Part shown: in pieces, positions 3,382 to 53,727 of the stretch
Position numbering within the stretch: the first letter of the stretch is position 1
Layout: each line of letters begins with the position of its first letter
DNA from: Owenia fusiformis
Lineage: Eukaryota > Annelida > Polychaeta > Sabellida > Oweniidae
DNA length: 64,000 bases
Assembly: GCA_903813345.2 (NCBI GenBank)
Contig: CAIIXF020000001.1
Span: 11,383,598 to 11,447,597, forward strand
Direction of reading: 5' to 3'
The notes under the pieces: model-generated
Told to the model about the DNA's origin: nothing
Seen by the model: only the letters and a program-made list of their open reading frames with translations
The model's database searches: none
Position numbers and translations under genes: made by a program

Positions 3382-13148
<9,767 letters not shown>

Positions 13149-20524: not shown

Positions 20525-21794
20525 TCATTGGTACAGCAGATAGTTCTTGATAGAAGTAGGCAAGGGTAAATTGTGTATTTCATGGAGGCGATTTTTCCCG
20601 AGCTGCTTGCGGATCACCCGCCTACTGATGTCCATAAGAGGGAGGGGTTCAGCTGGAAAACACAGAGAGAAAGAATTACATTAAAGTGAAAACATTATGT
20701 GTATCATCTCATTGTTATTTTGTTCACTTGTTTGCTAGCATAATTTCAGATCCTAGATATGAATCTGCTGTTATTAAGATATGTTTTTATCATTAACCTT
20801 TTATGAAAAAAGTATAATTATAGGTTTATTTCTAGACCTAGTGATAATTGAATTTTGCTCTCCATGTGAGCTTATTTGCATATGAGCCAAGAACTAATAA
20901 AGAATGCATCAGACATTTTCACTAACATAAGAAATACTCTTGATTCAAAATGTGGCTTTGCATTTACAGATATCTAAATCTTTTACTCACAAGAAGTTTA
21001 GAAACGATGTTTTAACTTATGAAATTTGAACATACTATTTGTACTTTTGTAACTGTATTTGAAAAAAATAATATTGATAAAAAATTCTTAAACTTACGAT
21101 CTAAGCCATTAATGTATCTCATTGTTATTTCACAATGGCCCCATACCGCACTAACTAGAGGGTAGAGTTTCTTGCCTTTGAGCCCCCTGAAGGCAATGCC
21201 CAGGAATTGTCCATCTACTATAAAGCTCATGGTGCCTTCATCCATATCAAGCACTATTCGAAATGAGTCTGGCACGACAAATGTCTCATCAGGATTCAAC
21301 AATGTTGGATAAGTTCTTCCTGGGGTTGTTTGCACGTCATGATATAACTTATTGCGGCCGAGGTCCCAACCCCAAGATTCTTTATTACTACCAACCAAGG
21401 ACTGATAGCCGACGCAATGTAAAGGAGCATCTATTGTGCCTACACCAACTACAGCATGTGTGCCTCTTTGTCTTGTACTCCAATGTACTTCCCAGACATG
21501 GAGGCCACGTGTGAAGCCATAACGGCCACGAATACAGTCTGTGCTTTGGGCAACTGGGTGCCTATGGAACGTCATCTTATCATCTTCTTTTACAAATATA
21601 TTTAGAGATCTATCATCTGTGTTCCATGAATGTTGTAGTTGCACTTCCCGTGGAGCGGGAGGCATATCTAGAAGCATGTCTAATCTCGCTGGCTTCTGGA
21701 AATCTGGATTGTACGCCAGCTCTCGCTGGAGTTTATTGTTATAGTTTGGTTCACGGGAGATGGTCTTTATCCCACCTGATACTTTCTGACCCAT
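20525..21794 (-). CDS. SPSB: SPRY domain/SOCS box protein, SPSB1/SPSB4 type
   Basis: Substrate receptor of Cullin-5/Elongin B-C ubiquitin ligases. Family members bind (D/E)-(I/L)-N-N-N peptides such as those in iNOS, Par-4 and VASA (known). Coding exons are 21098-21794 (continuing as 5' UTR to an acceptor at 21882) and 20525-20652, total 274 aa against 273 in human SPSB1. The product starts [11 protein letters not shown] as in SPSB1/4, which decides the start over in-frame ATGs at 21800 and 21812. The SPRY domain includes [44 protein letters not shown] and the VWG pocket in [10 protein letters not shown]. The second exon is the SOCS box, [16 protein letters not shown] (Elongin C contact) then [16 protein letters not shown] (Cul5 LPLP). 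Intact. It cannot be assigned to SPSB1 versus SPSB4 without a phylogeny; invertebrates probably have one ancestral gene. Confidence 0.96.
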
Positions 21795-23010
21795 ACTCAT
21801 TTGTGGTGGCATACACACGACACTAACCAATATAATAATACACACTTGGTGGTGACACAGGTAGTCTTATTGTTTTATGTTCCTGAAAGCAAAAAAAGAG
21901 ATATTTATCACATGGAAATCACAAAGAAAATGGAACAAAAGTGACAAGGGGCTAACTACTGAGTGTACTGAAACTACCTGATGTTTCCATTCCAATGTGA
22001 CAAAACAAAATCTAATAAAAAGAATGAGACTCATCACCATTGATTTTTTAACATTTTGTGGAAAGTGGGTTCAATCCAACTTGTATGACACTGCTCCTGG
22101 AGAACAAACCTGTATTAAAACTGTTATGTAGAATGTAGTAGAGAGATATTTACAAATGGTTAGAACTCAAGCTTATCAACGTATTTACGAGTATAATGTA
22201 ATATAACTAAAACTGAAAGAAAATACAGTTCATATATTTCTATTTTCCTTTGTATAATTCCATTGTCAGATTGAACATTATTGATTAGAAGTCAGATGAA
22301 TCCACATGTTTCCGAGTTATACTGGCAGAATAGTATTACTTTTTCATATTAGTCGTAATATTCCATGTTGCTATCATTGATTTTGCATCAGTTAAAATGA
22401 GACAGCTGCGTCAATAGGCGTCTTGCCACATAGCTTTTGTGGCATGACCGATATGAGTTCTCAACCTCAATTCCAACAAATATGGTTCTCACAGAATAAA
22501 CTTAGTTCATAAAAAATAATTATGGTTCCAATCAAGTCTCTATAAAACTAACCTGTTCTTATAGTTGAGTTCCATTCTTCATATGTTATATAGATTCTAT
22601 TTACATGTTATTGTTTGCTAACATTGAATTCAAACAAAAACATCCTTGTTTACTGAACTATAAATCCTTAGAGAAATTGGAATGGTGGCGATGTATTTCC
22701 TCCTTACATGTTAGGTGCCTTATTTATATAATGACCTCATATACATACAGTTGTATAAACTGTATACCATTGCTTCCAAATAGTCACTGTTCAGAGAACT
22801 CAACACAGATGGGGCAGACAGCTGTTTCTCCTATGATATAATTAACCAGATTGAACAAAGTGAACCAATATTGACTGCAATCAACTTATAGACATCTCTG
22901 ACGGTGGCTGGCACCAAAGTGTGGACGTAGAGAAGCCATTCAATTCACTTAGTCATGAAGGAGTTAATCATTCCAGTTGGAACAAAAAAATACATATCTT
23001 TTAAACTGTA

Positions 23011-38800: not shown

Positions 38801-41800
38801 CAAGTGAATATAATATTCTATATTTGGCTTTACCCATCTCAATTCAACAAGGAGGGGTACAAAATATCATAGAACTCAATCAATTTATTGCATATACATG
38901 GTGACCCAAAAAATGCAACCCCCATTATTTTTCTTATTAGAAGGTTGATTGCTTTGAAATTTGGCACACAATGACTTCATTCAATGTGGGATCCTCAGGC
39001 AAAGTTTTAATAATCAGTCTTAGTTTGATAGAGTTATGGTCGTTCCAAAATATGCTCCAACATTGAATGAAGTCTTTCAGAGCAATTAAGCTTCATTTAA
39101 AGAAAATATTGAAGAAAATGGAGGGTTGCATTTTAAAAGTTGATAAACAATTGTCGAAACCATATGTTCTTTAACATGTAGATTTCAAATATGACATCAC
39201 TTTGTCAATGACTGAATTTTGAATATTTAATGACGCAAATCACAATTATTTCTACTCACAACTAGTATATAATGATAGTAAAAATAAATGAAAATGACTC
39301 ATTTAAACACATCATGTAATATTATTTTGACTTATACGTAAGCAAAACAATAAATTTTGTAATCGTGACCAATTTTATAATATCATCAGAAATTACAATA
39401 CATAGAAACCTTTCAGTGCCAACAGCAGTCAGATGTCTGTACCTAACAATAACATTTTTGCAAATGAAATAATTCAATTCGCAAAATGCAGTTATTTATA
39501 CGAGGGGTGATCAATAAGTAATGGACGCTTTTTTACACAGATACTTTTTATACATAAATACTCTAACTATAATGATGTCAATGTAAAATAAGGACTGGTG
39601 ATCAATGTCACTACCTTTTGATGAATTAACTGTTATTTTACTTGATTCAGATTAATGAAACTGGAAGTTTTGAAGTCCTAAGTGCAAGGGCAGGTAAAGC
39701 ATTCCTAGGTTTAAGAAGACTGCTTACAGGAAAGGTAAATATGGCAAAAATATGTTAAATGGTAAGTATAAAAATGCAAAAGTGCAAAATGCAAAAGTGC
39801 AAATTTTTTCCATGTTTTAAACAAGTTAAAGCACTTGACTTATGGTTTAAATGAGCATTCCATGTTAGCATTTTCTCAAAATGGTATCTATTATCATCAT
39901 ACATCTAAGTATCTTATATAATATTCCTGTATAATATCATAACCCTATGGTATCTTATGTTTTAACCATGTGGTATCTTATATCATGATATTGTGGTATC
40001 TTATATTTTATCCCTGTGGTATCATGACATGTGGTATCTTATATTTTATCCCTGTGGTATCATGACATGTGGTATCTTATATTTTAACCTTGTGGTATCT
40101 TATTTCATGACACTGTGGTATCTTATATTCTAACCATGTGGTATTTTATATCATGATAATGTGGTATCTTATATTTCTATCCTGTGGTATCATGACATGT
40201 GGTATCTTATATTCTAACCCTGTGGTATCTTATTTCATGACACTGTGGTATCTTATATTTTATCCCTGTGGTATCATGACATGTGGTATCTTATATTTCT
40301 ATCCTGTGGTAGGAAATCTTAATACCCTGTGGTAGGAGAAGATGGAGCCAAGGAGGAAGATGTGATTAAGGCTGAAGGAGAGCAGAAAGATATTGGTGCA
40401 TATGATGTTGTCGAGGAAATGCCTGAGATGTTATGCTTTTCATATGGGAATGCTGTTGAAAAGGACATTGGTATGAACATTGTTTGTATAAAGTAAAAGG
40501 AATACTCTTAGAAAACATATTCTTACACATCAATTTCTAATTTTTCCAGTTTCCTATGAGAGTTTTAACACCAAACTGGATTAGAAATAATTCAGTTCAA
40601 AAGTGGAGGTTATTCTTTAATCATTTTGAGTTTTCAAGTTCCCTCCACATAAACAACTTTTAATTCTAGGAAAATTTAGCAAAGAAGACCTTGCTAGATG
40701 TGTCCTATCGAACACCTGCTTTGACTTCATTCAGAGTGCTTGTTGTGCAGCAGAGTGAAAATTTAATGAACATATACTTCTGTGGCGGATTTACCAATCA
40801 TGAACTTTGTTGCTATGAAATGTCTAAGTTGTGCTGTTAACATGCTGTCTATGCAAATAAGGTACAGTAATATGTTTACAGGTTGATTTCAATGAAATGC
40901 ACATCTGCTTTATTGATAACTTGAATTCAATTTTGAATATGAATATGAACAGGTCAAATAATAACTTTATTTGCTTTGACGCAACAGATTATTATTAATG
41001 ACCATTTTCAAGACTTTAACCATTATGGCTTTAACTACAGATAACTTTGTCCAGCTTTTTCTAAGATTTTCCCAGAATACATGGTCTATATGATAAATTC
41101 TACATACATTGTGTGAAAATCAATAACGCAGATGCGAGTAAGTAGTTACCAGTTTCACCACCAGGTGGCTCATTCGGGCCAGATAACATGGCGGGTATAG
41201 GAGAAAGTTCCCTTCAACTTAACTTTAATTTCTTTCAGTGGTTCAATTTTCATATAACCCTTATGTATCTAATAGTTATGCAAATTAAAATATGTCCAGC
41301 AAAATAAAATGTTATCTGTCCAATACAAGAAAAGATATTTCACATTTGGTGCTTTTGTAACATGGGGTCTATAGGGAATCAACCCGAGCTAGAAATCACA
41401 TTTTCAAAAATCTTGAATTTTCAAAGTTGATTAACAATTTTCGGAATCATATTTCTAGCTGTTTTTTTTCATGTAGATTACAAATATGACATCACTTTGT
41501 CTGAATTTTGAATATTCAATGATGTAAAACAAGTTTATATCTACTCGCACCTAGTCTATTAGAAACAGTGATCTCCCCAGCATTTAAGTGTGTAGGCGCA
41601 ACACTCATCTAAAAATCTATTTGCACCCAATTGAAAAAAAATGAGAAAAATGAAAAATCAAGGCATATATTGGCCAATTTTGATCTGAATTGTGAAAATG
41701 AAAATTTTGGAACCACTAAGGAAAAAATCCTAAGGAGGAGGCTGAGAAATGCAACATACATGTATATACACATATTTCTATTCATTTTTTTTTCTTGTTA

Positions 41801-44800
41801 ATTGTGTCTGGTTTCTATGTATTTGTTTTGGTTGCTATCCATTTATAATATTATTATAAATATAACATATATAATATCAAAACAAATTTTGTAACAACCA
41901 TTAACAAAAATAATAAGTTTTTCTATTCATTATCTTTTACTGATTATTGTTTCTGATTTCTATGTGTTTGTTTTGGTTGCCACACTGACTAATATAATAA
42001 CATTTATATAATTTCAAACCATGAACATGATTTTCAACAGATGAAACAGCAAGGATTGGAACATCTAACAAGACATTAACAGGCAAAATGTCACCACCTG
42101 TCATTTATTACAGACACCAAACACTAAACACCAGATGCTGAACAATGACCACCAAACACCAAACAACGACCACAAAAAGGTTGTGGTGGTGACATGAAAA
42201 CTAAAACAAATTCTGTGCACATGATGAGGTGTTTGAATAAATATACAGGGTGTCCCGAAAGTATGGGCCCCCCTAGGCAGACATATACCAGTGTGGTCAT
42301 AGTATGTGTCATATATCATTTTAAAGCCTATCCAAAGTTACATTGATTCGCCAAGTATCATGGTTCAACTCTCAAATGTGAAAAAATTACAGGCATTTCA
42401 AAATTTAGTGTTTGGTCAAAATTAAGTTCAATTTTACACCAAAACACTAGTCAATGTGTCCTCCCGGGCCATCTTAATAGCAGCAATTATTTTCAGGTCG
42501 GATGGATATTGAGTGGGAAAAAGAGAACGGTGAGGGTAGATACTCTAAGGAAACTCTTCTAAAGTTCCTTAACAGGTTTTAAGAGGGTTATAAAATTCCA
42601 CACCCCTATTTCAAGGGCCTTTAAGGTCATATATGAAAATAATTGCTGCTGTGAACATGGCCAAGGGGGGACTCATTGACTAGTGATGTGGTGTAAAATT
42701 GAACTTTATTTTGACAAAACACTAACTTTTAAAATGACTGTAACTTTTTCCCATTTGGGAGTTAAACCATGATACTTGGCAAATCAATGTAACTTTGGAT
42801 AAGCTTTAAAATGATATATGACACATACTAGGAGGACACTGGAATATGTCTGCCTAGGGGGGGCCCCATACTTTCGAGACACCCTGTACATAATTCTGGC
42901 CATAAAGTTTTCTCGAGAAAATGTTCAGAGGAGGGAAATTAGTGCAACAGATTTCGGATAGCCATATGTTGGATTTTGGCTATTCTCTGAGGATTTAAAC
43001 GAAAAGCATGGGGTTGTGGGAAGATACTTAATGGAAAATACTCCAGGAGGTCAGGTTACTTAGTCAAGGGAGCCAAGCATATATTATCATCAATATTTTC
43101 ATAGATCTCAGTCATCAGACACCAATCAAAAACAAGACATTAACATGTCACCACCTGTCATTTGTTACAGACACCAAATCCTGACCACCACGTGCTAAAT
43201 GCCAAACACCAACCCCTGAACACTATCCACTAAAAAGTTGGAGACTTAAACAATACCTCTGTTGGTGACATAAAAATCATATTGTGAATAATATGGCAGA
43301 CAGTGAATGAAACACAAACATTTTACTCACCCATTCCGCATGCCAAACTGTCTCCTTGATGGTTAAACTTTGTCAACTAAAAATAACAATATGACGACAA
43401 TATAGCACAGTAATACAGCATGAATACAGGTTTATTTTTCTTTAATCAGGCCAGGCAGCTTAACCCGACCCCCCCCCCCCTCCTGGCCTCAAATTCTCTC
43501 AAAATCATACAATTTTCACAAATTCAGAGCAGTTTTTAAGTGATTTTGGGCCATAGTTGTCAAATGTGAACCCTCCTGGAACCCCCTTGGCAAAAGCTGG
43601 CTCTAGGACTGTCAATGAATTTATTTTCATAACCAATGATTGGAATTTGGAATAAACAACAATGTTGAAATGTGGCACACAACGATGTGATATATGTTTG
43701 AACATCATTAAGAATATTGCAATAATGTAAAATATTAAAAGAAGTATCTCAGATATTGTAGTGGAAAAAATGTTAATTGATTATTATGTTGGTCAGTTGA
43801 TTTGTTGTATCCTAGAAAATCTCCAGTTAAAATGTTTCATGCAACATGTGGAATAATTGGCAATAGTATGACATACGAGTAATTCCATTCATATTGTACT
43901 TACAGAAATAATACCAGGTGCTCCTGGGTCATGCAATTGGCATTTAACATCTCCTGTATCAGCATCAAATACATCGATGGTACGCTTCTCACCCTGTGTA
44001 TAACCTGGGAACTTGGGGTCAGGGTAGCGACCAACAATAATAAGGTCTTCTAGTGGATGCCACTGAGCCTAAAACAACAATATACAACCATGATATACAA
44101 GGATCACTTTGGTAAAAATATGTCTCAGAATTTGGAAATTGAAATGTACATGATTGTATAAATCTGTGACAAAGAATAATCTGTTGCATGCATTATAAAT
44201 GTAATTTTATCTTGCCAAATTAACTTACATACATGTTTACTGTATCTCTTCTTTGCCAGTTCTCTCGAAATGTGAACCAAATTCAAAATCTCTAAAATCT
44301 CAAATTCTCTAAAATCTCACAATAACTATATTTAATACCTTAATTGGGGTGATATGTCTAAATGCCCTGTGAGGGTGGCTAATGGTTGTTCCAAGGGTCC
44401 AACTAGGACCCCCATACACTCGGAGCTCATCATGTTGATCCGTACACAAAAGCCTCTTGCCATCTGTAGGACTAAAGTATGCTAAAAGAATAAGCAAAGT
44501 TACCTTTATAGGTGTGATATGCTGGAAGCCTCTATGAGGGTGTTGTATATTGGTTTCTAGGTGCCACTCAGGGGATCTGTATACTCTAATGTCACTGTAC
44601 TGGTCTGTAGTTAGTAACCTTGTACCATCAGATACACTGAAATATGCTGTCATAAACAAAATACTTAATGATCACCTGTAAACTGGATCTAATTTCACAT
44701 CAGGGCACTTCTAAATCTATATCAAATCATCAATTTACTTTTGTAAAAGAACGCTTTTCGCAGCTCAATTTCAATCATTTTTTGAAAAAGGCAGGTCTTC

Positions 44801-47800
44801 ACAAAATGGTTACTTGAAATAGCACACAAGAACATACCGATCAGCCTCAAGACAAATGATCACCTCAACTCATCACTGTATTGGGATGACCTGTTCTCAA
44901 ACTATTTGATGGGATACACTTACCAGAATTGACTCCCTTGCTGTGAGGAAGAACTTTGAGTACTGATGACCTATCTTTCACCATTCTGAGGTCCCACAGC
45001 TGAACAGTTTGGTCCATAGAGGCAGTACATAGCAACCAGTCCTCTCTTGGGCTGAACTCTACATGGGTTACCTTGTTCTTATGAAGTCTTGACTGCCAGA
45101 TCTTCAATAGGATAATGCGAGATATTAATGTTCATATTGTGCAATTCACAGTATCAGACTTAATAGAAGATAGAACTGGAAACTACCCTTGAATCAATGG
45201 TCACTGAACCTCTAAAAATGCATTTCAAAACCACTGGATATAGCCTGAGGTACACAAGTACAAAAGGTATCTTTGCAGAAATGGTCATGCTTATAAATTA
45301 AAAATTCTGTATCATTATGTGACCTTAGACGGAATGTGTTTAACTGGTGAAATCATTTATTTAGAGATATACTGTACTCCAACTAATATTTGACACTATT
45401 ATATTTCGCGTTTTTGGCATTTTGAAATTTCGCGGCGATCATATTTCGCTAATTTACAGTTTTTTAAAATTTCGTGGGTATTAATCTCCACGGATTTGTC
45501 ATACAGGATCACTCTTTCGACTTTGATATCAGCCATGGTAGTCCTTCACCCATTGATTTTGGCTTCTTATAAAGCCTTTTCGTTAGAATGTTCGTTTTAA
45601 TACAGTAATAACGATCTCTCTTTTAATTTCTCTTTTACAAAACTCAAAATGTCACGTTTTTACCTATTATCACCCAGCACTGGACGAAAATATTGTCAAC
45701 ATTGAAATCTCTGGGAATTTCCTTGGAATTATGCAACTATCAAATTTCAAATATAGTACCGCGTGACAATTACCGGGAGTACAGTAATTGATTTACCTTT
45801 TTGCCCTGAGTATTCATAAGAGTGACATTCCCTTTGTTATCGCCAGCAGATAGCACCTTCCTCTGTGAGTTTACATCCACTCCACAGAACCAATGGCTGC
45901 AACACAGAAACAATACAAAAAGATTATTACTTCGCTAACTTACATCAGTATTCCAGATTAGAGACCAGCATGTTAATGTCTAAATTATATCATAGACCAG
46001 TTGCATTACTATTTCCAAATAGGCGTACCTCATCAAATGAATAGATAATTGATAGTTTAACCTCATATGAAAAGTAAATAAAAAATGACATAATTTAAAA
46101 GCGCTAAAGCAGCCAAGCGCCGTTGAACTCACTCAAGGTCCATGGTATCAAGGAACACTTTGTTTTGTACACCCTCAAAATCATGTAGCTCTATCTTCCC
46201 ATCTATGGATGCTGTCAGCAAGCACTTTGGGTCATCAGGCCAGAACTTCATGGCTTGAATAGATCCCCCTGGACCTTTCTAGAATGTACCATAGAAGAAT
46301 TTTTGAATTTTGTGATTACTGGCTCAGATGGACAACATTTGAAAAAATTACTAATGTTTTAGCAATGGTATATATACAAATTATTAATGTTTTAGCAATG
46401 GTATATATACAAGGCATTAACATGCAAAATGTCCCACCGTATGCCACCTACCGAATACCATCCACAAAAAAGTTGGAGACTACACTATGACATAAAAATG
46501 AAAATCATTTTTATTTGTGAGCATATTAAGACTTTTTGTACTGTATACTAGCTACTGTATACTAACTAGAGGTGTCACGGTCCAAAAGAATTTGATTCAG
46601 TATGGAACGGTACAAATGGTCTCGGGACACCATACTTTCGGGACGGGGCAGGACATTAAAGAAAAATTATGCAATGTCTGATGATGGCAGTTTCAATTTT
46701 TCGACATCATATTCAGAATTAAAATCGAATGTAAAGCATCTGCGATGTGATCGGCATTTCACATAATCAGCACGGTGTACTATCACCAATTCGTTTACCT
46801 TGTGATATCAGAGTCCCAAAAAACTTCCAAACTGCCGACTTTTTCGGCTAGGATGCCGGCTCAATTTTTCAATTTCTTTTCTACATCCAGCATATTAAAC
46901 CTTTCTGTCCCATGTCCCGAACCGAAGCATCTGGTCCCAAATTCAGTCTAATATCGGGAAACCGTGACATCTCTAATACTAACCCCTTGAACAAATGTGT
47001 CCTGGTTGAGTTCATTGACATTCCATAGTATAATGTCACCACCTTTGGACCCTACAGCCAGCATGCTAGGATTGTTCGGGTGCCACTCTAGAGCAGTCAC
47101 ACGCCTGTCAAAAGGACTAGCTGTCCGATACAACTGCATGTCAGTCACGAGTTGAACTATGGAAGATTTTGCACTCTGGAATGAGAAGAAGGTAACTGAA
47201 CAGTGAGAATGATTTCAGAAAAAGTGCAAGATCTCTCTAGACATGTTTGCTTTTGGTTTTGATGAAGAAAGTATATTTACCAGTTAACTGTTTTAAGCCA
47301 GAGCCTGACTTTTGGTTAGTATTCTTTGCAATTTGTTTTATATTGATATTGATAAGTCTACATGATTCTAAACTCAATGTCAAAAATATAAAGGAGTGCA
47401 CCAATTATTAACAGGTATCATGCTTCTTGAGTCGATAACGACTTTCCACATGACATTCTTTTATGATGCAGCTGTATGATCAGATAAACAAAATACCTTT
47501 TTTAAATTGTTGAATTTTCCACCATGACCCATTCTGTTTGCGAATAAGTGCTGTATCACACTGTTGCAGCTTGCCTGGTATCTGGGGCTTGGTGTCGAGC
47601 ATGTGAACTGGTAGGTTGACTTTCTGGGATGCAAGGAACATGGAAACACAAGGTTGGATCCATGAGTGTTAATATCTAATGGTGACAGCGTACTGCCAGT
47701 GCTAGTAGATGCATCTGTGTCTGCATGCGATGGTTTTGTTACACATGATGTATTGTCATTTGTGATTGTCAAATTAGAGTTTTGATCCTTAGCTATTTGC

Positions 47801-47931
47801 CGTTTTCTCTTAGGTGGAGCTGAGGCCTTTAAAGAAGGGCTTTCTACATCTACATTTCTTTTTCGCCTGCTCGCACGGGTAGGTACTGATGGAACTGGAG
47901 TATTTTTGTCAGATGTTTTGCCTTTGGCCAT
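35829..47931 (-). CDS. DDB2: DNA damage-binding protein 2 (UV-lesion sensor, WD40)
   Basis: WD40 subunit of UV-DDB that finds UV photoproducts in chromatin and recruits CUL4-DDB1 for nucleotide excision repair (known). Exons: 47497-47931 (5' UTR to 47974), 46984-47175, 46133-46278, 45797-45896, 44924-45101, then 44504-44646 (6A) or 44339-44481 (6B), 43904-44068, 43331-43376, 35829-36082. All phases join; 552 aa with one copy of exon 6. Seen: NLS-like RRKRN and PPKRKRQ, a DDB1-binding helical segment ([12 protein letters not shown]), [28 protein letters not shown], the DWD/WDxR motif [32 protein letters not shown]. The last exon lies beyond a 7.2-kb intron; it completes MGFNILLWN (human MGYHILIW) and adds a Lys-rich tail of about 70 residues not in human DDB2. 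Start 47931 has a strong context (A at -3, G at +4). Confidence 0.95.
38897..39134. mobile_element. Short TIR element, mariner-like ends
   Basis: TA then CATGGTGACCCAAAAAATGC at the left. AATGCAACCCCCATT is mirrored at the right by AATGGAGGGTTGCATT. About 240 bp and non-coding. The outermost right end is eroded. Confidence 0.5.
39501..39550. mobile_element. Truncated mariner-like terminus
   Basis: TA followed by CGAGGGGTGATCAATAAGTA resembles mariner tips and the tip of the element at 13880. No opposite end was found before the 39.65-kb exon. Confidence 0.4.
39651..40758 (+). CDS. Unrecognised three-exon gene nested in a DDB2 intron
   Basis: Exons 39651-39693, 40336-40470 and 40670-40758 (stop TGA) join in frame through GT-AG introns (1-base then 2-base split codons at both junctions). 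They give a C-terminal ~88-residue sequence: [15 protein letters not shown], an acidic middle ([20 protein letters not shown]), [13 protein letters not shown], then [19 protein letters not shown] ending SACCAAE. The first exon has an acceptor (TTGATTCAG), so an upstream exon is missing from the model and the N-terminus is unknown. A second donor at 39735 would break the frame. No domain was recognised; GSFEV is only faintly like SelW/Rdx proteins. The gene is antisense within DDB2's last intron, and its intron 1 ends in a minisatellite touching the acceptor. It could be a small lineage-specific gene or a pseudogene. Confidence 0.45.
39885..40335 (+). repeat. Minisatellite ending at a splice acceptor
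   Basis: More than ten copies of CTGTGGTATCTTATATTTTA / CATGACATGTGGTATCTTAT units, with a basic repeat of about 38 bp composed of two half-units sharing TGTGGTATC. The last units read CCTGTGGTAGGAAATC and CCCTGTGGTAG. The final TAG is the acceptor of the exon starting at 40336. Confidence 0.85.
42088..42195. mobile_element. ATGTCACCACC MITE family, copy 2
   Basis: It starts ATGTCACCACCTGTCATTTA and ends GTGGTGGTGACAT, preceded by ACATTAACAGGCAAA. The interior holds CCAAACACTAAACACC-type repeats. Confidence 0.7.
42246..42886. mobile_element. Foldback mariner-type MITE, 641 bp
   Basis: TA flanks both ends. CAGGGTGTCCCGAAAGTATG.. at the left is mirrored by the right end ..CATACTTTCGAGACACCCTG. 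Pairing continues inward through CTAGGCAGACATAT, ATATGACACATACTA, AAATCAATGTAACTTTGGAT and CATTGACTAGTG, so each arm is about 230-250 bp and most of the element is palindromic. It is non-coding and lies in the last DDB2 intron. Confidence 0.85.
43145..43271. mobile_element. ATGTCACCACC MITE family, copy 3
   Basis: ATGTCACCACCTGTCATTTG at the start and GTTGGTGACAT at the end, with AAAAAGTTGGAGACTTAAAC inside. It lies about 60 bases from DDB2 exon 8. Confidence 0.65.
44339..44481 (-). CDS. DDB2: DDB2 exon 6B (FRH variant of the lesion hairpin)
   Basis: 143 nt, 2-base split codon at the start and phase 0 at the end, acceptor TTATTCTTTTAG, donor GTATTA. It encodes 48 residues from [16 protein letters not shown] through [11 protein letters not shown] to [13 protein letters not shown]. 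It is interchangeable in phase and length with 6A and shares 31 of 48 residues with it. The hairpin reads F-R-H where human DDB2 has F334-Q335-H336. Confidence 0.9.
44482..44503 (-). other. DDB2: 22-nt spacer (ultrashort intron) between DDB2 exons 6A and 6B
   Basis: On the gene strand it starts GTAACTTTG and ends TTATTCTTTTAG, with a donor, a pyrimidine tract and an AG. It is far below the size the animal spliceosome normally removes. It has no stop in the 6A frame, so retaining it gives VTLLILL and joins 6A to 6B in frame (143+22 = 165 = 55 codons). Confidence 0.9.
44504..44646 (-). CDS. DDB2: DDB2 exon 6A (FQH form of the lesion hairpin)
   Basis: 143 nt, acceptor TTTATGACAG, donor GTAACT. 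It encodes [16 protein letters not shown], then [11 protein letters not shown], then [13 protein letters not shown]. It keeps the F-Q-H triad that in human and zebrafish DDB2 inserts into DNA at the lesion (known from crystal structures). Residues 391-393 of the assembled protein. Confidence 0.93.
45370..45786. mobile_element. TIR element with TTTCGCG subrepeats in DDB2 intron 4
   Basis: The ends are TACTGTACTCC and GGAGTACAGTA. The left part holds four spaced ATATTTCGCG/AATTTCGCGG-like words about 25 bases apart. About 417 bp and non-coding. Its right end lies ~10 bases from the exon 4 donor. Confidence 0.5.
46429..46493. mobile_element. ATGTCACCACC MITE family, shortened copy 4
   Basis: Preceded by GGCATTAACATGCAAA as in copy 1. 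It starts ATGTCCCACC and contains AAAAAAGTTGGAGACTACAC and a terminal TATGACATAAAAATG. It is internally deleted and lies in DDB2 intron 2. Confidence 0.55.
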
Positions 47932-48600
47932 TTCGATTAAGCTGTAGGTATTGAGTTGATTCTGCAAGCCTGTTCTGAAAATAATAAAGTAATCATTTCA
48001 TTATCATGATCAAGGTCTATTGAATTTTGGATTCTATTTTTCTGATTTATTCAAAGCTGTAATACACGATCATAGTGACTTATTTTCAAAATTTAAATAG
48101 TTTATCCCACAGTTGGCTAATTTGTTCATACATGCAAATTCCCAATTGGGCTTTCTTGTGTTTAACTGCGCAAAGAATTTGATGCATAGTCTCTTATTCA
48201 ATGGATAGACTCATTCTCAAAATTCATTTCGTTCGTTGCGTACCTTCACTACCTAAGGCACAGGAGGCACGGATTGCACTGGACAAAAGGCTCGGAGATT
48301 GGGATAGACTCTCATTTGCATCACAAGCTAAAGAGATGGACAAGTGTCATCTCAGCGAGAATTTTGCATGACAAAAACAGCGACCATTTTGGGTCATTTT
48401 CACTGATGTCAGCCTTTTTAAAATCCATCTTTTAAGATGTTAAGACCTCTTGTCTTTTTTTTAATTTAATTTCTTATAATTTCGAGTGATGGGATACTAT
48501 AAGACTCTAGTAATACAGCTGTGCAAGTTCAAGTCACCAAAATAAATAAAACTTTATTGTTTTGAATTCCTGTTTCCAATCCTGGTACTGGTAGTTTATC

Positions 48601-49750: not shown

Positions 49751-50418
49751 TGTTTAGACAGGTGATTAGATCCTTAGACTTTAGCTTTTAAAAACCCCGC
49801 GAAAATTATTGTCAACAACTTACTAAAACCAAAATAAAAACAAATCGGTACTTCAAATACCTGTCTTTCAGCGTTCAAATACTTGAAAAATACTTTGGAA
49901 AATAAATTATGCCATTCAATTCGTTCTAAAGGTTCTACTAAATCTCAAATATAACTTTGGAGTAAAGGAGATAAAAATCGTGAAATAATATTTCCGTTAT
50001 CGCCCACTTATATAACGGGAGCATAAAGTAAATATATTCTTAATCGCTGTATCTTATCATCTTATTAACAAATTGTTAACATGTATATCGTAAATATAGG
50101 AATTAATATAAAATGTGTAGACATCAAACACAGAGACATCATTATCCTTTATTGAAAATACAATAACACACACTCATTATAGTTGCTGGGCGATAATAGG
50201 TGAATATCTGTGTGATTCCATGTCTTATATATTTCAATATATTCCATTGTAAATGTACTGTTTTAAAAGTCGAAGACAGCATTATATATAAAAGAAAAGT
50301 TAGTAGAACAGTTCGAGATTTAATATTGATTAAGTAGGTGGTAGTTCTTGGTTTTATTGACCTCTTTTTCTGTGATCATGGAAACCACTTACCTTCAACA
50401 GAGTCATACACACAGTTG

Positions 50419-53400
50419 ATGCAACTGCGACGTTTCCATAAGATTGTTGGCTCTCGTGGAATCCTTCACAAGAAATCTTCCACACCACTGCTCTTCCTAT
50501 GTCTTATTCTAAGTGGTGACATCCACCCAAACCCAGGTCCTGTTAAATTTCCCTGCGGTATGTGCCACAAAGCAGTTGCCAAGAATCATCGCGCCCTTGA
50601 ATGCGATGAATGTGGCACATGGGTACACATCAAATGTGGCAATGTTTCCCCTGCTGAGTACAATGTTTTTCTTGACGCGGGCAGTTTCACCTGGATCTGT
50701 CCTGGATGTGCCCTACCTAATTTTTCCAACAGCTTCTTCAATGACTCCACTCTTTCTCATTCCTCGGTAACAAACTCCTTCAGCGCTCTCTCTGATCTTG
50801 ACAATTCGTCATCATCATCTGATTCTACCGAATCAGAACCACCGAGGCTGACTGCACGAAAGAGGCGAAACCAGGTTCGCCTCATGTCTATCAACTTCCG
50901 CAGTCTAATTAGTCATGAGAAGCAACTACACCTTCAACAACTAATTGAAACTCACAAGCCAGATGTCATCATAGGCTGTGAGACTCACCTGGACAACACC
51001 ATCGACAGCAAATGGATATTTGGTCAAGACTACCTTAGCCCACCTCCACACAGGAAAGACCGAAAGAAAGGTGCTGGCGGTGTCCTTATCGCAGTCAAAA
51101 GTGACTTCATATCAGTCGAATATGAAGCGACAGCTGATTGCGAAATCATATGGTCCAAAGCATCTCTATCAAATGGGGACATACTGTTTGGATCCTTCTA
51201 TCGTCAACCAAACAACGATACTGGTGCTTTGGACTCGCTCCAAACATCCCTCGATAAACTTTATGCTAATGGTAATACACATATGAAAAACATCTTCCTA
51301 TGTGGTGACTTCAACTTACCAGACATCGATTGGGAGAAAGGAACTATAAGGCCTAATTCTCAATATTCTAATGATCTTAATGAGAAGATGATTACAATAA
51401 CTGATGATCATGGCCTAACCCAACTAGTCAAGGAACCAACTAGACAAAATAACATCCTTGACTTAGTATTCACTACATGCCCAAACCTCGCAGAAAGAAT
51501 CTCGGTGGTTCCGGGCATGAGTGATCACGAGGCAGTCCTATGTGATATAAACCTAAAAATGAAAATTCAGAAAAAGAAGCCTCGTAAGGTCCACATATAC
51601 AAGCGGGCAGAATGGACTGGACTTAAAGAGACTCTACGATCTAAGTTCAGCGAATTCAAAGAGAACTGTGAAAGTAGATCAGTTGAAGACAACTGGTCCT
51701 CCTTCAAATCTACATTAATATCGTCAATCAATGAGCATATTCCAAGTAAAACTCTAAGCGGGAAATTCAAAGTACCCTGGATTACCACCAGGATACTGAG
51801 AATGATCCGACAGAAACAAAGACGATATAATGTTGCCAAACGTTCAAATGAACCTCATCATTGGCATAAATACAAATCACTACGGAAATTAATCCATAGT
51901 GAAATTCGTAAAGAACATCAGCGCTACATCAACGATCTGCTTGACATTGATGAAAGCGAAATCATAAATGAGAATGTTCAGCACAAAGGCATTACCAAAC
52001 GCTTCTGGAGCTACATAAAGTCTAAACGCAAAGATGCATCAGGTATCAGCGTGCTGCGTAACAAAGATGGCGACGAAATAACAGACGCCGCCCAGAAAGC
52101 AAACATCCTCAATGACCAATACAATTCTGTATTCACAGATGAGGATGCCACTCTACCGACAATGGTACCTAGTCAAATTCCTGAAATGCCAAATATCAAA
52201 ATTTCGACAAAAGGAATTCACAAATTGCTAACTGGCCTAAATCCATCAAAAGCCACTGGACCCGATCTTATTCCGACTAGGGTCCTGAAGGAATGCAGTG
52301 ACAGCATATCACCATTCCTTCAAATAATTTTTCAACAGTCTATCGATGAAGGCTTAGTGCCTATGGACTGGAAACATGCCAATGTTACTGCTATCTACAA
52401 AAAGGGACGAAGAGATGAGGCTGTGAATTACAGGCCTGTATCTCTGACGTCAGTACCATGTAAAATAATGGAACATATTATATTCCATCATGTTATGGCC
52501 CACTTTGACCTCTATGAAATTCTAGTAAAATTCCAACATGGATTCAGGTCAAAACACTCATGTGAAACACAACTTGTCAATACAATAGAGAATATAGCTC
52601 GGGCCCTCGACAACAATAAACAAACAGACATGTTGGTATTAGACTTTTCCAAAGCGTTTGACACGGTGGCTCACGAACGCCTCTTGCTCAAACTCGACTA
52701 TTATGGAATTCGCAATAATAACTTGAACTGGTTCAGATCCTGGCTTGTGGGAAGATCACAACAGGTAGTGCTCGATGGTGAATCAAGTTCAAAAACTCCA
52801 GTAAAATCAGGAGTTCCTCAAGGAACAGTTCTTGGACCACTCTGTTTCCTTGTTTATATCAATGATATGGGCAATAACCTATCATCCTCAGCCAGTCTTA
52901 AGCTTTTTGCCGACGACAGCCTTTTATTCATGACAGTCGAAAGCAAGCAAGATGCATTAACACTACAGGAGAATCTTGATAAACTGGTCTCCTGGGCATC
53001 AACATGGCAAATGAAATTCCATCCATCAAAATGCTATGTGCTAAATATTCACAAAGGTAAATCCCCTATCATGCACAATTACACCATGCTAGGGGAAAAC
53101 CTTAAGTCGGTAACACACATCCCATACCTAGGAATTGACATCACAAATAACTTACGCTGGACTACACATATTCAAACTATTGTATCCAAAGCCAATAAGG
53201 TGCTTGGATTTCTCAGGCGCAACCTCCATCAATGCCCTGAAAAAGTGAAGGCTCAGGCATATAAGTCACTAGTCCGGCCTAATTTAGAGTATGCCAGCTC
53301 GGCATGGGATCCGTACCGACAAAAAGATATTGATATGTTGGAACAGGTACAGAGAAGAGCAGCCAGGTTTGTAACCAAATGTCACTCAAGGGAACCAGGC

Positions 53401-53727
53401 TGCGTCACCAAAGCTCTTCAAGACCTACAGTGGGAGCCACTGAAGGAGCGTCGAGAGGCTGCTAGAGTTTTCCTTTTCTACAAAGGAAAGCAGAACCTAG
53501 CAGCCATCGACGTGCCTCCATACTTCCGCCAACAGATCAATACCAACACTAGGTTGTATCATCCTTCTAAGTTCATACAACCATCAACTAGAACGGATGC
53601 ATACAAATTTAGCTATTTCCCTAGGACAATAACTAAATGGAACACTCTACCTGGTGACATCTTAGACTGTGATAGTCTAAGTAGTTTTAAATCATCATAC
53701 TATGCCTATGTCAATAACTGCAATTAA
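50419..53727 (+). CDS. LINE polyprotein: 2A-like leader, PHD finger, endonuclease, reverse transcriptase
   Basis: Copies element RNA into DNA at nicked target sites. The first in-frame ATG is 50419 (1102 aa); the frame is open from 50338. Order (numbered from that Met): basic then hydrophobic leader (LLFLCLILSG, about 24-33), GDIHPNPGP (33-41), a Cys4-His-Cys3 PHD finger (about 46-97: CGMC, CDEC, HIKC, CPGC), a Ser-rich linker, then an endonuclease domain with MSINFRSL, CETHLD, CGDFNLPDIDW and SDHEAV. The reverse transcriptase has NYRPVSLTSVPCK, HGFRSKHSCE, VLDFSKAFDTVAH, SGVPQGTVLGP and LFADDS. The C-terminus carries NLEYASSAWDPYR and VQRRAARFV, as in CR1/L2/Jockey-type elements. There is no RNase H and no stops. 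No separate ORF1 was found upstream. Confidence 0.93.
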   Translation: MQLRRFHKIVGSRGILHKKSSTPLLFLCLILSGDIHPNPGPVKFPCGMCHKAVAKNHRALECDECGTWVHIKCGNVSPAEYNVFLDAGSFTWICPGCALPNFSNSFFNDSTLSHSSVTNSFSALSDLDNSSSSSDSTESEPPRLTARKRRNQVRLMSINFRSLISHEKQLHLQQLIETHKPDVIIGCETHLDNTIDSKWIFGQDYLSPPPHRKDRKKGAGGVLIAVKSDFISVEYEATADCEIIWSKASLSNGDILFGSFYRQPNNDTGALDSLQTSLDKLYANGNTHMKNIFLCGDFNLPDIDWEKGTIRPNSQYSNDLNEKMITITDDHGLTQLVKEPTRQNNILDLVFTTCPNLAERISVVPGMSDHEAVLCDINLKMKIQKKKPRKVHIYKRAEWTGLKETLRSKFSEFKENCESRSVEDNWSSFKSTLISSINEHIPSKTLSGKFKVPWITTRILRMIRQKQRRYNVAKRSNEPHHWHKYKSLRKLIHSEIRKEHQRYINDLLDIDESEIINENVQHKGITKRFWSYIKSKRKDASGISVLRNKDGDEITDAAQKANILNDQYNSVFTDEDATLPTMVPSQIPEMPNIKISTKGIHKLLTGLNPSKATGPDLIPTRVLKECSDSISPFLQIIFQQSIDEGLVPMDWKHANVTAIYKKGRRDEAVNYRPVSLTSVPCKIMEHIIFHHVMAHFDLYEILVKFQHGFRSKHSCETQLVNTIENIARALDNNKQTDMLVLDFSKAFDTVAHERLLLKLDYYGIRNNNLNWFRSWLVGRSQQVVLDGESSSKTPVKSGVPQGTVLGPLCFLVYINDMGNNLSSSASLKLFADDSLLFMTVESKQDALTLQENLDKLVSWASTWQMKFHPSKCYVLNIHKGKSPIMHNYTMLGENLKSVTHIPYLGIDITNNLRWTTHIQTIVSKANKVLGFLRRNLHQCPEKVKAQAYKSLVRPNLEYASSAWDPYRQKDIDMLEQVQRRAARFVTKCHSREPGCVTKALQDLQWEPLKERREAARVFLFYKGKQNLAAIDVPPYFRQQINTNTRLYHPSKFIQPSTRTDAYKFSYFPRTITKWNTLPGDILDCDSLSSFKSSYYAYVNNCN
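50515..50541 (+). other. 2A-like ribosome-skipping motif at the LINE N-terminus
   Basis: Encodes GDIHPNPGP, matching 2A D-x-E-x-NPGP except for His in place of Glu. It follows a hydrophobic leader. 2A-like motifs at this position are known in APE-type LINEs of several invertebrates. Whether the His form skips is not shown by sequence. Confidence 0.6.

Follow-up and report, generated by a model that had tools for sequence, protein, structure and literature searches.

Two copies of the DDB2 wedge exon, 22 nt apart and probably mutually exclusive, in the annelid Owenia fusiformis

The window analysed here (a 64,000-nt stretch of Owenia fusiformis contig CAIIXF020000001.1, whose positions are used throughout) carries on its minus strand an ortholog of DDB2 in which the exon that encodes the DNA-probing wedge is present twice in tandem, as copies 6A and 6B with a spacer of 22 nt between them. 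The sequence comparisons described below give good support to both copies of the wedge exon being under selection, and the best reading of the pair, which we consider probable, is that they are mutually exclusive exons. DDB2 directly contacts UV lesions in chromatin (PMC12606344, PMC8629891), and if exactly one copy is used in each message, two damage-reading proteins would be made from one gene.

Exons 2–7 of this gene were joined and used as the query against solved protein chains, and the query matched DDB2 chains, with E values of 4.4e-103 for chains that we take to be from zebrafish and about 1e-100 for chains that we take to be human. From this propeller-wide homology and the wedge residues (below), we conclude that the gene holding 6A and 6B is DDB2. 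Its recognised parts, listed in the direction of transcription, are the following:

47497–47931, minus strand: coding part of DDB2 exon 1, within an open frame at 47464–47997, 145 codons in phase
46984–47175, minus strand: DDB2 exon 2, aligned to DDB2 chains
46133–46278, minus strand: DDB2 exon 3, aligned to DDB2 chains
45797–45896, minus strand: DDB2 exon 4, aligned to DDB2 chains
44924–45101, minus strand: DDB2 exon 5, with donor CTG/GTAAGT
44504–44646, minus strand: exon 6A, wedge F-Q-H, with acceptor TTTATGACAG and donor AAG/GTAACT
44482–44503, minus strand: the 22-nt spacer, GTAACTTTGCTTATTCTTTTAG, in which the 6A donor and the 6B acceptor stand back to back
44339–44481, minus strand: exon 6B, wedge F-R-H, with acceptor TTATTCTTTTAG and the weak donor AAG/GTATTA
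43904–44068, minus strand: DDB2 exon 7, aligned to DDB2 chains
43329–43376, minus strand: likely part of exon 8, a weak tblastn match (E 0.014) with approximate ends

The coding start in exon 1 is probably the ATG of MAKGKTSDK; this exon ends in the donor AAG/GTATTT, and a Pfam search with its coding part gave no match. The exon 8 candidate was found with the human DDB2 tail as the query, and its end overlaps a donor-like GTGAGT. Rfam, run on the window at gathering thresholds, gave no match. About 3 kb beyond the last recognised DDB2 exon piece there is a tandem array at 39948–40311 (periods near 23, 38 and 84 nt, core TGTGGTATCTTATATTT), and the segments 42149–42346 on the plus strand and 42784–42924 on the minus strand have a translated peptide of 14 residues in common and seem to be a single repeat present in both orientations.

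The initial annotation had described two 143-nt copies in identical phases, both flanked by an AG and a GT of their own, and recomputation reproduced this description: the coordinates and lengths are exact, the acceptors lie at 44646 (6A) and 44481 (6B) and the donors at 44504 and 44339, the spacer is 22 nt, and the donor of exon 5 (44924) and the acceptor of exon 7 (44068) were found at the positions claimed for them. The copies are identical at 31 of 48 residues, also as claimed, when the split first codon is counted, and in an ungapped comparison 84 of their 143 bases are equal. A whole-genome DNA search with the 308 nt that span both copies and the spacer, in which only the best candidates were scored, matched this place only. 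A separate genome search for paralogs or retrocopies that might reveal a spliced form, again with scoring limited to the best candidates, stayed within the DDB2 locus: at E <= 10 it gave three matches, one to 6A, one to 6B and one to exon 7 together with some of the intron before it.

Inclusion of a single copy keeps the reading frame, as had been proposed, since exons 2–5 followed by one of the copies, be it 6A or 6B, and then by exon 7 are open over 308 residues, and the joining of both copies without the spacer, or the omission of both, leads to a stop in exon 7. This frame logic had been offered as a reason for exclusive use, and here the claim stands in part: double splicing and double skipping do break the frame, but the 308-nt block of 6A, spacer and 6B, if retained whole, is open and in phase (a 120-codon open stretch), and exons 2–5 with this block and exon 7 give an open model of 363 residues. 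The frame survives spacer retention because 308 nt and 143 nt have the same remainder, 2, on division by three; whole-block retention had also been named as a case in the initial annotation, outside this argument. Frame alone is therefore no proof of exclusive choice, and we rejected it as such.

The open block is what favours a different explanation, in which the 308 nt are one exon, always or in part of the messages, with the spacer translated as VTLLILL and a 55-residue repeat that is maybe an extra blade; selection on both copies (below) would also be expected in that case. An open, in-phase 22-mer is, however, expected about one time in four by chance (a rough estimate), and a good donor and a good acceptor lie exactly at the ends of the copies, where a translated linker would give no reason to keep them over so much divergence. 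Exon 6 corresponds to about one propeller blade by WD40 anatomy, and the same anatomy places the junction of PIK and AYFSP in the innermost strand of the blade. The linker would add seven residues at that junction, likely within the strand, and so would probably not yield a clean blade repeat. Taking these points together, we consider a single translated exon unlikely.

The splice sites were scored with a matrix in which exon bases are included, and acceptor and donor reach 6.3 and 7.8 bits for 6A and 6.0 and 3.1 bits for 6B; the other DDB2 sites give 1.5–10.2 bits (five acceptors) and 4.5–10.8 bits (six donors). Of the GTs in the window 1.5% score at least as high as the 6A donor, and of the AGs 6.4% score at least as high as the 6B acceptor; assuming independence, the chance of finding such a donor and such an acceptor exactly at the ends of the spacer is about 3e-6. 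The 6B donor is the lowest of the eight scored in the gene and is matched or exceeded by 15.6% of window GTs; 6B might therefore be rare.

An intron of 22 nt had been called too short for normal splicing, and the measurements agree: it is far shorter than the six ordinary introns of this DDB2 gene (236–705 nt) and than the smallest (about 126 nt) of 35 introns of myosin estimated from exon matches in this genome, and it lies under the donor-to-branch-point threshold of about 50 nt described in PMC7969005. The myosin control used 77 of 93 exon matches (12 of the 16 omitted form a repeated-exon array, below), and an intron as short as 22 nt could go unnoticed within one match. Since the whole intron is 22 nt, any branch point inside it is less than 50 nt from the donor. 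The spacer was also compared with the ends of the other introns. Its score of 7 against the end of intron 5 was reached by 926 of 2000 shuffles and is not significant, and with scores of 6–8 for the five other intron ends there is no support for homology to the end of intron 5. Because the spacer is not detectably like that end, its intronic origin is without support from homology. This point and the weak 6B donor count against the mutually exclusive reading.

Differences between the copies are spread over the codon positions more unevenly than by chance, with 15, 12 and 32 mismatches at positions 1, 2 and 3 (Fisher p = 1.5e-5). Synonymous sites have reached saturation, at 32 differences over 31.5 sites, and pN stands at 0.24. 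The gap between 6A and 6B (31 of 48 residues identical) is about equal to that between human and zebrafish DDB2 over the same segment (30 of 48). The two copies are similarly close to the vertebrate proteins: 6A is identical to human at 30 of 47 residues and to zebrafish at 29 of 48, and 6B to human at 27 of 47 and to zebrafish at 27 of 48. Among the 30 residues common to human and zebrafish DDB2, 26 are kept in 6A and 24 in 6B. Neutral drift was simulated with a simple substitution model, 4000 runs per level, starting from 6A itself in place of an ancestor, and runs that stayed open and kept at least 24 of these residues made up 0.9% of the total at 0.15 substitutions per site and 0.025% at 0.25; at 0.4, 0.6, 0.8 and 1.2 not one run among the 4000 of each level did so. 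Synonymous saturation implies far more than 0.4 substitutions per site between the copies, a figure for the pair that leaves the share of each copy unspecified. Both 6A and 6B thus look selected as protein.

These values also bear on whether one copy might be a dead relic or the pair an artefact of assembly. The weak 6B donor would fit a relic, as would the alteration in 6B of Q335 and five other residues that are the same in human and zebrafish, where 6A alters four. Against this, both copies are open, non-synonymous change is low despite saturated synonymous sites, and 6B keeps four of five published DNA contacts (below) besides its 24 of 30 conserved residues. As 59 of 143 bases differ between 6A and 6B, the pair is not a misassembled repeat. 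We regard relic and artefact alike as very improbable. Relatives were also sought in two sequence collections: none of 29 candidate stretches was confirmed in viral_contigs, and in genome_contigs one of 70 was, a stretch of a bacterial MAG record that we rejected as a chance match, with only 13 residues alike and stops around it.

By alignment count, exon 6 spans A294 to K341 in human numbering, and in this count Q308 lands on a residue named in the structural literature. The DNA contacts given for this stretch in PMC12606344 are Q308, R332, F334, Q335 and H336, and the DDB2 wedge is also described in PMC8629891; in the accessible parts of these two structural papers DDB2 has one three-residue wedge. 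That exon 6 carries the F334-Q335-H336 wedge, as the initial annotation had it, is borne out by the human numbering and by both papers, and the alignment likewise confirmed F-Q-H in 6A and F-R-H in 6B. All five published contact residues are kept in 6A; 6B keeps the equivalents of human Q308, R332, F334 and H336, with Arg in place of Q335. Both copies have T338, the residue that is altered in a risk variant for eye cancer in horses (PMC7762027). An Arg at the tip could bring more charge, more non-specific grip or a different preference for the orphan bases. Two wedges that have been kept for so long, one with Arg for Gln, amount to a natural experiment on the function of the tip.

If 6A and 6B are mutually exclusive exons, as we think probable, their history and use could be as follows. 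Exon 6 would have been duplicated in tandem long ago and both copies then kept; exon 5 would join either 6A or 6B, and the chosen copy would join exon 7. Splicing of 6A to 6B would be blocked, as 22 nt appear too short to hold U1 at the 6A donor and U2/U2AF at the 6B acceptor at once. Candidate branch points for 6B are adenines of the spacer, in GTAAC, about 18 nt from the acceptor and also the 6A donor, or in CTTAT, about 9 nt from the acceptor; alternatively, the branch point could lie inside exon 6A. With so short a spacer and branch candidates there or in 6A, choosing one copy would therefore put the other out of use. Were the spacer nonetheless removed, the frame would break (computed above), and the message would then probably be degraded.

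This last step could in principle be the main function of the pair, namely an off switch in which spacer removal or double skipping yields frame-broken messages that are degraded, so that the level of DDB2 is tuned. Both of these joins do break the frame in exon 7, which fits such a role, but a 22-nt intron is far under the introns measured here, and the DDB2 residues kept in both copies would be left unexplained. We think there is little chance that this is the principal role of the pair.

Under mutually exclusive use, the two predicted proteins would differ at the wedge tip, where the equivalent of human residue 335 is Gln or Arg, and in the surrounding loops, and the isoforms should therefore bind lesions with different affinity, preference or dwell time. 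It is plausible that they read lesions differently. A fuller proposal is that one gene makes two UV sensors whose different wedge tips read different lesions or chromatin states, and that the switch is the 22-nt element, with a 6A donor that overlaps the 6B branch site, so that each choice would destroy the other; in this complete form the proposal is speculative, and we offer it as a tentative possibility only. Developmental and adult-tissue transcriptomes of Owenia fusiformis have been published (PMC9977687), and the main claim is therefore testable now.

Tandem mutually exclusive exons are of a known kind. They are described for the metazoan muscle myosin heavy chain (PMC3912159), and in human clusters of such exons joint splicing breaks the frame in 60% (PMC5740500). 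As in these systems, the DDB2 copies are adjacent and homologous, equal in length and phase, and equipped with their own splice sites, and, as in that 60% of human clusters, joining both breaks the frame. Unlike these systems, the Owenia gene encodes a DNA-repair sensor, the spacer is 22 nt and the pair is known from genomic sequence. The proposed distance limit for exclusion, from donor to branch point, is given as about 50 nt in PMC7969005, with 41 nt in rat Tpm1 and 25–41 nt in human OGDH; 22 nt is below each of these values. The DDB2 pair resembles alpha-tropomyosin and OGDH exons 4a/4b in having little room between the first donor and the second branch point; in those genes, however, the intron is longer and its branch point lies well away from the acceptor, whereas a total intron length of 22 nt in Owenia DDB2 forces the branch site to overlap the donor, to crowd the acceptor or to sit inside 6A. 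The pair would thus carry exclusion by shortage of space to an extreme. With vertebrate DDB2 (XPE) the gene has in common its propeller-wide homology and, in 6A, the F-Q-H wedge, but in the aligned vertebrate chains the segment exists in one version, with F-Q-H, and Owenia has two, one of them with F-R-H. A literature search for mutually exclusive exons in DDB2, mostly over titles and the beginnings of abstracts, found no earlier report, and a search on DDB2 isoforms gave no match; in the available text of PMC9858704, on human tumours, "mutually exclusive exons" occurs only in a list of splicing types. The kind of arrangement is known, and what is added is a probable pair in DDB2, where these searches found none, with 22-nt spacing.

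Elsewhere in the Owenia genome, the muscle myosin heavy chain gene has 12 tandem copies of a motor exon with TYSGLFCVVINPY (G000:C9:37986009-37994334), whose match edges are 164–1788 nt apart; from its sequence it is probably a large mutually exclusive array. By exon numbering, we take it to lie just before the P-loop exon and to be neither cluster 1 nor cluster 2 of PMC3912159. When the muscle myosin was compared with PDB chains, those of vertebrates, squid and scallop gave similar scores; a COX1 search of the genome gave no match. Given these tandem copies in myosin, such exons seem at home in the Owenia genome, although in myosin the copies stand far apart, unlike the DDB2 pair with its 22 nt. 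Of four primers printed for Owenia in PMC8111721, three have a single exact match each in the genome, the two reverse ones after removal of the presumed adapter: the syt1 primers converge in one locus, about 32 kb apart, with the reverse site in what looks like a synaptotagmin exon, and the elav1 reverse primer falls on another contig. The elav1 forward primer had no match within one mismatch, perhaps because it spans a junction. These matches fit Owenia fusiformis or a very close relative. Three other features of the window were recognised. On the plus strand, 50338–53724 is open over 1129 codons and has a PHD finger, an endonuclease domain and a reverse transcriptase domain; it is therefore identified as a non-LTR retrotransposon. 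On the minus strand there is a SPRY-domain frame at 21015–21866 and a FAD_binding_4 exon at 7283–7525, the latter presumably from a gene for alkylglycerone-phosphate synthase, which it looks like.
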